From assembly GCA_012728895.1 (NCBI GenBank), contig JAAYEG010000001.1, positions 1-43,491 on the forward strand: a stretch of DNA of 43,491 bases, read 5' to 3'. The number at the start of each line of letters is the position of its first letter. The first letter of the stretch is position 1. The notes under the pieces are model-generated. The model was not told the origin of the DNA and made no database searches. It saw only the letters and a program-made list of their open reading frames with translations. The position numbers and the translations under genes are program-made. Of this stretch, positions 5,349 through 9,160 are shown piece by piece. This DNA is from Methanospirillum sp. (GTDB lineage Archaea > Halobacteriota > Methanomicrobia > Methanomicrobiales > Methanospirillaceae).

Positions 5349-7049
5349 TCAGGCCGTCTCGATCCGTGAGGCATCCTCGAGTCCGAGCTCGTCGATCGAG
5401 ATCTCCCGCATCCTGAACTTCTGGATCTTGCCCGAGACCGACATCGGGAAGTCGTCGACGAACTTTACGTACCGCGGGATCTTGAAGTTCGCGATCTTCC
5501 CGACACAGAACTCCCGGATTTCGTCTTCGGTGGCGCTCTCTTTCTCCCTGAGCATGATCCAGGCCATCAGCTCCTCGCCGTACTTCGTGTCGGGCACGCC
5601 GATCACGTAGACATCGCTCACCTTCGGGTGGTGGTGGAGGAACTCCTCGATCTCGCGGGGGTAGATGTTCTCGCCGCCGCGGATCACCATGTCCTTGAGA
5701 CGCCCCTCGATCTTGAGATACCCCTCCTCGTCCAGAGTCCCAAGGTCGCCCGTGTGGTTCCAGCCGTTCCGGTCGAGCGTCAGGTGCGTGGCGGAGGGAT
5801 TGTTGTAGTAGCACTTCATGACCATGTACCCGCGCGCGCAGATCTCCCCGACCTCCCCGCGCGGAAGGATCTTCCCCGTCGCCGGGTCGATGATCTTCAC
5901 TTCGGCGTGGGGGAAGGCCCGCCCCACGGTCGAGACCCGCCGTTCGATGGGATCGCTGGTGGTTGTCATCGTGATCCCGGGGGAGGTCTCGGTCTGGCCG
6001 TAGACGATCACGATCTCGGACATGTTCATCCGGGTGTTCACCTGCTTCATGACCTCGACGGGGCAGGGCGAGCCGGCCATGATCCCGGTCCGGAGGCTGC
6101 CCATGTAGTAGTTCGAGAAGTTGGGGTGAGCGAGCTCGGCGATGAACATGGTCGGGACGCCGTGGAGCGCCGTGCACCGCTCGTCCTGGATCGTCCGGAG
6201 CACGGACTCGGCGTCGAAGGCCGGGGAGGGGAGGACCATGGCCGAGCCGTGGGTCATGCAGGCCATGTTCGAGAGGACCATCCCGAAGCAGTGGTAGAAC
6301 GGGACCGGGATGCAGAGCCGGTCCCTCTCGGAGAAGCGCATCCCCTCGCCGATGATGAAGCCGTTGTTGAGGACGCTGTGGTGGCTCAGCACGACCCCCT
6401 TGGGGAACCCGGTGGTGCCGCTCGTGTACTGGATGTTGACCGGGTCGTCGAAGTCGAGCGACGCCGCCCGCGCGGCGAGCTCGTCCTGGTTGACCCCGCG
6501 CCCTTTCTCGACCACCTCGCTCCAGCGGAACATCCCGTTATACGGGATCTCGCCCGCGAAGATCGCGTTCCTGAGGAACGGGAACTTTTCGGACTGGATC
6601 CGGCCGGCCTTGCAGTCGAAGGCCTCGGGGCAGGCCTCGTAGAACATCCCGACGTAGTCCGAGGTCTTGAACCGTCCCTGGATGATCACGGTCTGGACCT
6701 CGGACTGGCGGAGCGCGTACTCGAGCTCGTACGTCCGGTAGGCCGGGTTGATGTTGACCAGGATCGCGCCGATCTTCGCGGTCGCGACCTGGGTCACGAT
6801 CCATTCTGCATGGTTCATCATCCAGATCCCGACGCGATCGCCCCTCTCCACGCCGAGCGCCATCAGGCCCCGGGCGAGCGCCTCCACCTGCTCGTGGAGG
6901 TCGCGGTAGGTCCAGCGGATCCCCTGGTGGACCGAGACGACGGCATCGGCACCGGGATATCGGCCGGCGACCTCGTCGAACATCTCTCCGATCGTCTTCC
7001 CGATCAGGGGCACCTCGGAGGTGCCGGTCGCGTAGCTGATCAACCCCAT
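5349..7049 (-). CDS. Acyl-CoA synthetase (AMP-forming, ACSF2/FadD-like)
   Basis: A 566-residue ANL-superfamily adenylating ligase that activates a carboxylic acid to acyl-AMP and then acyl-CoA. Motifs: YTSGTTGFPKG (P-loop), YGQTE, the NHTGDLG aspartate region, GRLKDMVIRGGENIYP hinge and the C-terminal SGKIQK catalytic lysine. The N-terminus (SYATGTSEVPL) and overall layout resemble bacterial medium-chain ACSF2-type synthetases more than archaeal acetyl-CoA synthetases, so acquisition from bacteria is plausible. The open frame extends upstream of ATG 7049, but that extension is low-complexity Pro/Arg and lies beyond the promoter. It is convergent with the deaminase gene, 24 bp apart. The chain length of the substrate cannot be told. 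Confidence 0.9.
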   Translation of the reverse strand: MGLISYATGTSEVPLIGKTIGEMFDEVAGRYPGADAVVSVHQGIRWTYRDLHEQVEALARGLMALGVERGDRVGIWMMNHAEWIVTQVATAKIGAILVNINPAYRTYELEYALRQSEVQTVIIQGRFKTSDYVGMFYEACPEAFDCKAGRIQSEKFPFLRNAIFAGEIPYNGMFRWSEVVEKGRGVNQDELAARAASLDFDDPVNIQYTSGTTGFPKGVVLSHHSVLNNGFIIGEGMRFSERDRLCIPVPFYHCFGMVLSNMACMTHGSAMVLPSPAFDAESVLRTIQDERCTALHGVPTMFIAELAHPNFSNYYMGSLRTGIMAGSPCPVEVMKQVNTRMNMSEIVIVYGQTETSPGITMTTTSDPIERRVSTVGRAFPHAEVKIIDPATGKILPRGEVGEICARGYMVMKCYYNNPSATHLTLDRNGWNHTGDLGTLDEEGYLKIEGRLKDMVIRGGENIYPREIEEFLHHHPKVSDVYVIGVPDTKYGEELMAWIMLREKESATEDEIREFCVGKIANFKIPRYVKFVDDFPMSVSGKIQKFRMREISIDELGLEDASRIETA

Positions 7050-7072
7050 TCCCTGAGAGGTTGACGACGGCT

Positions 7073-7373: not shown

Positions 7374-7383
7374 CATTTTATGC
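7374..7383 (+). promoter_or_regulatory. TATA box for tRNA-Trp
   Basis: CATTTTATGC in otherwise GC-rich sequence, about 30 bp before the first tRNA nucleotide, as expected for an archaeal stable-RNA promoter. Confidence 0.5.
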
Positions 7384-7410: not shown

Positions 7411-7560
7411 GGGGTCGTGGCCTAGTCCGGAATGGCGACGGGCTCCAGCGGTCTCGTGCGGGTGATGAACAATGGGTCTCCTGATTCGTGATGACCCGTT
7501 GGAGCACTGACGCACATCGGAGAGACCCGTCGATCGTGAGTTCAAATCTCACCGACCCCA
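7411..7560 (+). tRNA. tRNA-Trp (anticodon CCA) with a 76-nt intron
   Basis: Acceptor GGGGTCG (7411-7417) pairs with CGACCCC (7553-7559), discriminator A at 7560, CCA not encoded. The anticodon stem is ACGGG (7438-7442) with CCCGT (7526-7530), anticodon CCA at 7445-7447, T-arm 7536-7552. The intron is 7449-7524, between positions 37 and 38. The splice sites form a canonical bulge-helix-bulge: 4-bp central helix 7443-7446 with 7519-7522, and two 3-nt bulges at 7447-7449 and 7523-7525. This is the substrate shape of the archaeal splicing endonuclease. A T-run at 7563-7566 may terminate transcription. Confidence 0.95.
7456..7515 (+). ncRNA. Box C/D guide RNA inside the tRNA-Trp intron
   Basis: The intron holds a complete C/D RNA: box C GTGATGA 7462-7468, D' CTGA 7481-7484, C' GTGATGA 7488-7494, D CTGA 7507-7510, closed by GTGCG 7456-7460 with CGCAC 7511-7515. 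The D guide (7498-7505) pairs with 7442-7449. The fifth nucleotide before box D, G7502, faces C34. The D' guide (7472-7480) pairs with 7522-7530, and its fifth nucleotide, G7476, faces C39. Both duplexes span exon-intron borders, so methylation must precede splicing. This matches the known archaeal pre-tRNA-Trp system that 2'-O-methylates positions 34 and 39. Confidence 0.93.
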
Positions 7561-7972: not shown

Positions 7973-9160
7973 ATGTATCTGATAGGAGAGGCACTGGTCG
8001 GGGACGGTCCCGAGCTCGCGCACGTCGACCTCGTCGTCGGTGAGAAGGGCGGACCGGTCGGCCAGGCCTTCGTGAACGGGCTCACCCAGCTATCGAAGGG
8101 GCACACGCCCCTGCTCGCCGTGGTCAGGCCGAACCTGATGACCAAGCCCGCGACGCTCGTCATCCCGAAGGTGACCCTGAAGCGGGGCGAGCAGGTCCGC
8201 GAGATGTTCGGCCCGGTCCAGGCCGCGGTCGCGAAGGCCGTCGCCGACGCCCTCGAGGAGGGGGTCTTCGGCGACCACGACGTGGAGGACCTGGTGATCT
8301 TGGCCTCGGTCTACCTGGATCCGAATGCCGCGGACTACAACCGGATCTACCGCTTCAACTACGGCGCGACGAAGCTCGCGCTGGTCCGGGCCCTCGACCG
8401 CTTCCCGCCGGCGGAGACGCTGCTCCACGAGAAGGACCGCGCGGCCCACGCGGTGATGGGGTTCAAGGTCCAGCGGCTCTGGGACCCCCCGTACCTCCAG
8501 GTCGCTCTGGACCTGGTGGACATGAACCGGATCCGCCACGTGCTCGCGGAGCTCCCCGATTCCGACCATTTAATCATCGAGGCCGGCACCCCGACGGTGA
8601 AACAGTTCGGGCTCTCGGTGATCTCCGAGATCCGGAAGGTCCGGCCGAACGCGTTCGTGATCGCGGACCTCAAGACCCTCGACACCGGCAACCTGGAGGC
8701 CAGGATGGCCGCCGACGCCACCGCGGACGCGGTCGTGGTCTCGGGCCTCGCCCCCCGGGAGACGATCGAGAAGGCGCTCGCGGAGGCGAAAAAGACCGGG
8801 ATCTACTCGATCATCGACATGCTCAACGTCTCCGACCCGGTGGCCGTTCTGGGCGGACTCGCGGTGAAGCCCGACATCGTCGAGCTCCACCGCGCGATCG
8901 ACTGCGAGCAGGACGGCACCTGCCACGTCTGGGGCAACATCGACGCCATGCGCGAGGCGGCGGGCGGCAGGCTCCTGGTCGCGACGGCCGGCGGGATCCG
9001 GGTCGAGAACGTCCGCGAGGCGCTCGCCGCTGGCTCCCAGGTCATCGTCGTGGGACGGGCGATCACGGCATCGAAAGACGTTCACCACGCCGCCGAGGAG
9101 TTCCTGGAGCAGCTCGGCCAGCCGGAGATCGACCAGTTCCGGGTCAGAACGGACTTCTAG
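7973..9160 (+). CDS. fae-hps: Bifunctional formaldehyde-activating enzyme / 3-hexulose-6-phosphate synthase
   Basis: A 395-residue fusion. Residues 1 to about 165 are Fae, with the catalytic H17 in ELAHVDLVVG, which condenses formaldehyde with tetrahydromethanopterin. Residues about 175-395 are Hps, an orotidine-decarboxylase-fold TIM barrel with the DLKTLDTG metal/phosphate motif. In methanogens lacking the oxidative pentose phosphate pathway this fusion works mainly in reverse: it makes ribulose 5-phosphate for nucleotides and passes the released formaldehyde to H4MPT. The start is ATG 7973, giving the family N-terminus MYLIGEALVGDG. A strong hairpin follows the stop. It is monocistronic. 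Confidence 0.95.
   Translation: MYLIGEALVGDGPELAHVDLVVGEKGGPVGQAFVNGLTQLSKGHTPLLAVVRPNLMTKPATLVIPKVTLKRGEQVREMFGPVQAAVAKAVADALEEGVFGDHDVEDLVILASVYLDPNAADYNRIYRFNYGATKLALVRALDRFPPAETLLHEKDRAAHAVMGFKVQRLWDPPYLQVALDLVDMNRIRHVLAELPDSDHLIIEAGTPTVKQFGLSVISEIRKVRPNAFVIADLKTLDTGNLEARMAADATADAVVVSGLAPRETIEKALAEAKKTGIYSIIDMLNVSDPVAVLGGLAVKPDIVELHRAIDCEQDGTCHVWGNIDAMREAAGGRLLVATAGGIRVENVREALAAGSQVIVVGRAITASKDVHHAAEEFLEQLGQPEIDQFRVRTDF

Follow-up and report, generated by a model that had tools for sequence, protein, structure and literature searches.

The window, i.e. the whole stretch of 43,491 nucleotides that was analysed, belongs to an archaeal genome of 2.28 Mb that is 95% complete. Among the fetched loci, the nearest named DNA is SISS01000015.1 from a Methanoregulaceae MAG (about 77-85% identity over several kb) and this sequence relationship places the host among the methanogens of the order Methanomicrobiales. 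On the plus strand of the window, the Rfam tRNA model matches positions 7411-7560 (49.3 bits, E 1.1e-7). According to its sequence, the match is a gene for tRNA-Trp(CCA) that is interrupted at position 37/38 by an intron of 76 nt. With default settings, ARAGORN did not report a tRNA-Trp at 7411-7560; this miss is due to the intron and does not count against the tRNA. The gene occupies its own intergenic space between two protein-coding genes, and the locus is made up as follows:

5349-7064, minus strand: AMP-binding acyl-CoA synthetase-like gene, neighbour of the tRNA-Trp gene
7376-7382, plus strand: candidate TATA-like element UUUUAUG, preceding the tRNA start by about 30 nt (sequence reading)
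7411-7448, plus strand: 5' exon of tRNA-Trp, positions 1-37 (Rfam tRNA match and sequence)
7445-7447, plus strand: anticodon CCA, with C34 at 7445
7449-7524, plus strand: 76-nt intron at canonical position 37/38, also box C/D guide RNA (Rfam sR3 and BHB borders)
7525-7560, plus strand: 3' exon of tRNA-Trp, positions 38-73, with C39 at 7526, which pairs with G31 at 7442
7976-9160, plus strand: fused formaldehyde-activating enzyme/HUMPS-family gene, neighbour of the tRNA-Trp gene

A box C/D guide RNA inside the intron

The sequence-only reading had described the intron as a two-site box C/D methylation guide and had called for a covariance search for tRNA and C/D RNAs. Both Rfam models indeed matched. 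The sR3 family of box C/D RNAs (RF01133) aligns with positions 7458-7512 over the full length of the model (1-55 of 55) at 64.1 bits, the gathering score being 41 (E 9.7e-14). Together with the guide register, this match supports a dual guide for positions 34 and 39. The elements listed below were read from the sequence and all lie on the plus strand:

7443-7446: 5' strand CUCC of the central helix of the bulge-helix-bulge (BHB), with the bulge AGC at 7447-7449
7456-7460: 5' arm GUGCG of the closing stem, paired with 7511-7515
7462-7468: C box GUGAUGA
7472-7480: D' guide, 9 bp with 7522-7530; G7476, the fifth nucleotide from the D' box, lies opposite C39 (C7526)
7481-7484: D' box CUGA
7488-7494: C' box GUGAUGA
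7496-7505: D guide, 10 bp with 7442-7451 (one G.U); G7502, the fifth nucleotide from the D box, lies opposite C34 (C7445)
7507-7510: D box CUGA
7511-7515: 3' arm CGCAC of the closing stem, paired with 7456-7460
7519-7522: 3' strand GGAG of the BHB central helix, with the bulge AGA at 7523-7525

Thus, the anatomy proposed from the letters alone was borne out: the BHB is canonical, its CUCC/GGAG helix being flanked by 3-nt bulges (AG^C and AG^A), the C, D', C' and D boxes are complete, the GUGCG/CGCAC stem closes the structure and the fifth nucleotides upstream of D and D' face C34 and C39. The positions given earlier were also right, as was the length of the D' duplex, and only the D duplex had to be corrected from 8 to 10 bp. 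With random guides of the composition of the intron, in-register duplexes of these lengths arise at frequencies of 3.2e-4 and 6.2e-4, the product being about 2e-7, and chance complementarity of both guides was therefore rejected. Moreover, the precursor folds three standard deviations better than shuffled sequence.

A further feature concerns the two guides themselves. The D' guide of the window, AAUGGGUC (7471-7478), can base-pair with the first part of the D guide region, GACCCGUU (7494-7501), and in most relatives at least the AAYGG/CCGUU part of this complementarity is found. The free intron could mask its own guides by such pairing.

The source genome also encodes the proteins with which a guide of this kind is expected to work. 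The genes for Nop5 and fibrillarin are adjacent, a splicing endonuclease gene has two tRNA_int_endo domains and an RtcB gene is present. Two genes belong to the L7Ae family, L7Ae itself and paralogues such as L30e being taken together.

Conservation and guide-target covariation

The same intron layout occurs in close and order-level relatives that were collected by tRNA-exon and whole-locus searches, and these searches, by the tRNA exons or by the 150-bp locus, did not select for the guide alone. Of the 392 genomes of the phylum, 228 have an RF01133 match, and so do two control genomes, one of them from Methanosarcina acetivorans. When named genomes were scanned with a pattern, 116 further loci were obtained, among them loci from Methanoculleus, Methanoregula, Methanolinea, Methanospirillum, Methanocorpusculum, Methanothrix, ANME-2, Archaeoglobus and others. 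In the resulting set of 153 distinct precursors, 152 have their D guide in register, a count that is in part a product of selection because the D guide and the D box belong to the pattern by which the 116 loci were found. The C box, the D' guide and position 39 lie outside this pattern; 145 of the 153 precursors have a D' guide duplex of at least 7 bp, and position 39 is C in 149 and U in four. The C, D' and C' boxes and both guides are conserved across orders, as are the BHB borders in relatives, whereas the spacer and the length of the intron (61-207 nt) vary freely.

The D' guide is the more variable of the two guides among relatives, being reduced to 6 bp or off register in some of them (L008, L125 and L168). 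For instance, L125 contains one extra T (around 630, reverse strand), which shifts the D' guide by one position. In L164 (around 364, reverse strand) and other Methanoregula loci, the region between D' and C' is extended by long insertions rich in hairpins, with introns of up to 207 nt.

The four U39 precursors, which are called haloarchaeal type by their resemblance to the published Haloferax intron, differ from the others on both sides of the D' duplex. In their exon, AUCAGU takes the place of ACCCGU, and in their guide ACUGAU or ACUGGU takes that of AUGGGU. The nucleotide opposite position 39 is G in the C39 precursors and A or G in the four U39 precursors, and at position 41 the C-G pair is replaced by A-U through changes on both sides. 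At the level of sequence, the co-change of guide and target at positions 39 and 41 is the best evidence that the pairing is used. Among the methanogens and Archaeoglobi sampled, the self-guiding intron in tRNA-Trp is the norm, C39 being the usual state in these organisms and U39 the haloarchaeal state.

Guide copies, guide loss and intronless genes

Some genomes depart from this arrangement. A Methanoregula MAG (JAPKXT010000002.1) contains a second, intact sR3 copy (L123 5179-5236, minus strand, 59 bits) about 1.2 kb from its intact tRNA-Trp gene and within a ruined tRNA-Trp duplicate that has neither acceptor arm nor anticodon. From the C box to the D' box the copy is identical at 24 of 24 positions, and the C'-D part is nearly so; the search pattern had demanded the C'-D part and not the C-D' part. 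Judged by its sequence, this free-standing copy may be a free trans guide. The reverse case is a tRNA-Trp gene in a same-family genome, G250 (L047 1501-1670; G250:C66:26766-26935, minus strand), which has kept a 96-nt intron with its BHB, while a deletion has removed the D guide and the D box and the D' guide has disappeared as well. This is a natural loss of the guide. Moreover, intronless tRNA-Trp genes were found in four genomes of the phylum (L039 336-409 and, each at 1501-1574, L040, L041 and L042). The guide copy outside a functional tRNA, the guide-less intron and the intronless genes are natural experiments on cis and trans action and on the need for the guide; most of these genomes are multi-contig assemblies and call for confirmation. 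A search of the genomes with intronless or decayed tRNA-Trp for a stand-alone replacement guide by the strict pattern TGATGA...TGGAGYNCTGA gave none.

Several other candidates were set aside. What looked like a 30-nt intron in G360 includes NN and probably reflects an assembly gap, and the same probably holds for G005 with its longer N run; at loci L048 and L051, such N runs lie inside the tRNA-Trp intron or the anticodon region (NN in G360, longer in G005). In G012, the exon search found no tRNA-Trp exons, which is probably a gap. A second sR3 match at L245 1425-1601 (G133:C107) belongs to an additional tRNA-Trp gene, of Methanomicrobiales type, in a genome that has a Methanosarcina-like one, and is possibly contamination. 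The weaker second sR3 matches, in Archaeoglobi among others, resemble other C/D RNAs or chance hits. An Archaeoglobus-like guide intron in tRNA-Trp on a contig labelled Bathyarchaeota (L142 6087-6107) reflects misbinning or transfer.

Predicted methylation and splicing of the precursor

Taken as a whole, the locus is very probably a Methanomicrobiales tRNA-Trp gene whose intron is a box C/D sRNA that guides methylation of C34 and C39 of its own tRNA and is removed by BHB splicing. The present analysis contributes to this explanation the anatomy, both guide registers, the conservation, the compensatory change of guide and target and the protein genes; for the methylation as such, for RNP assembly and circularisation, for the order of the steps and for action in trans, the explanation draws on studied relatives. 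The intron would adopt the box C/D sRNA fold both within the precursor and after excision, when it is probably a circle. By analogy, it would be bound by L7Ae, Nop5 and fibrillarin, and C34 and C39 of tRNA-Trp would be 2'-O-methylated under the direction of the D guide and the D' guide, respectively. The endonuclease would cut the BHB, and RtcB would ligate the exons and probably also the ends of the intron. A circular intron was present in all archaea that were re-analysed in PMC12558985, and the circular excised intron is known in other archaea (PMC12558985; PMC9014305).

The order of these steps is constrained by base pairing. Both duplexes span exon-intron borders, as had been noticed in the sequence-only reading, and share bases with the BHB (CUCC 7443-7446 and the 3' strand of the anticodon stem). 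Therefore, one molecule cannot hold the guide duplexes and the BHB at once, and each duplex excludes the BHB. Moreover, the duplexes 7442-7451/7496-7505 and 7472-7480/7522-7530 cross and would form a pseudoknot in a single molecule. Because two cis duplexes would be knotted, sequential or trans action is likelier than simultaneous action in cis. In vitro work with Haloferax favours trans and sequential action (PMC2584109; PMC7994747). By analogy, the two sites may be methylated one after the other, an intron probably acting in trans on a different precursor.

From the border-crossing duplexes it had been concluded that splicing must wait for methylation. On pairing grounds, this holds for site 34, whose duplex shrinks from 10 bp in the precursor to 7 bp after splicing, and not for site 39, where 8 of the 9 bp in the precursor can still form in register once the tRNA is spliced. 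The pairing at site 39 survives splicing because AG is the end of exon 1 as well as of the intron. Among the 153 precursors, the mean loss of pairing on splicing is 2.95 bp at site 34 and 0.04 bp at site 39. Methylation before splicing has been argued for in PMC2584109, on the basis of haloarchaea. Since the site-39 guide pairs equally with spliced tRNA and precursor across the clade, a staged methylation may be considered, in which C34 would be methylated on the unspliced precursor and C39 also or mainly on the spliced tRNA by the excised intron in trans. The free-standing Methanoregula copy would then serve as a trans guide that occurs naturally. Still, the folded anticodon stem may block action on the spliced tRNA by limiting access, and we regard the staged order as distinctly unlikely. 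If it were true, splicing need not wait for both methylations.

Other explanations of the intron

The intron could be an ordinary spliced intron, with boxes and complementarity that are leftover or coincidence and with no guided methylation. The L047 gene, in which the guide has decayed in a BHB-bearing intron, and the intronless tRNA-Trp genes of the phylum would fit this explanation; because L047 retains the intron without the guide, the guide function is dispensable. However, two in-register duplexes are expected by chance at only about 2e-7 and sR3 matches at 64 bits. Moreover, the C, D' and C' boxes and the guides are kept across orders despite the free variation in spacer and length, and guide and target co-vary between the C39 and U39 lineages, which makes an ordinary intron extremely improbable. 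An equally slight chance is left for guides that mainly target another RNA such as rRNA, with the tRNA pairing as a by-product. As a rule, archaeal C/D sRNAs do target rRNA (PMC7994747), but both guides are in exact register with the host tRNA where methylation is known to occur, and both track the sequence of the tRNA when it changes.

A C/D RNA that acts on C34 only, with a D' guide that is weak or silent at C39, has to be taken more seriously. In tRNA-Trp of P. furiosus, methylation was predicted at C34 and C39, and tRNA MS did not detect the latter (PMC7668247); for this reason, Cm39 need not be made wherever a C39 guide exists. The greater variability of the D' guide in relatives such as L008, L125 and L168 points in the same direction. 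On the other hand, the D' guide of the window forms 9 bp next to canonical D' and C' boxes, 145 of the 153 precursors keep at least 7 bp and the same layout makes Um39 in Haloferax (PMC2584109). We therefore consider action on C34 alone unlikely and prefer the dual guide for C34 and C39.

Comparison with known systems

The tRNA-Trp guide intron was described for at least 29 archaea in 2008 (PMC2584109) and has been extended to other Euryarchaeota (PMC11408192). In Haloferax, deletion of the intron abolishes both methylations and the intron is dispensable (PMC11408192). The sequence-only reading had correctly recognised a known system, whereas the novelty that it implied for C39 was not upheld: a review table from 2018 lists "Cm34 and Um39 (or Cm39)" (PMC6313347). 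In view of the published C39 cases and of C39 in 149 of the 153 precursors, C39 was rejected as a novel feature. With the published Cm39 variant (PMC6313347; PMC7668247), the intron shares C39 opposite a G of the D' guide, and no sequence difference was found.

The systems of Haloferax volcanii and Pyrococcus (sR50) share with the present one (PMC2584109; PMC7994747) the 37/38 intron with a BHB, the dual guide for Cm34 and Nm39 and a pairing that includes intron sequence. The Haloferax intron has 103 nt, more degenerate boxes and U39 (PMC2584109), whereas the intron in the window has 76 nt, canonical boxes and C39. The D'-C' spacer measures 19-21 in Halobacteria (PMC2584109) and 3 nt here. Compared with Rfam RF01133 (sR3), the boxes and guides are the same and there is no difference of kind. 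Thus, the system is already known and contains nothing new in kind, and the present case is an ordinary member of it, including its C39.
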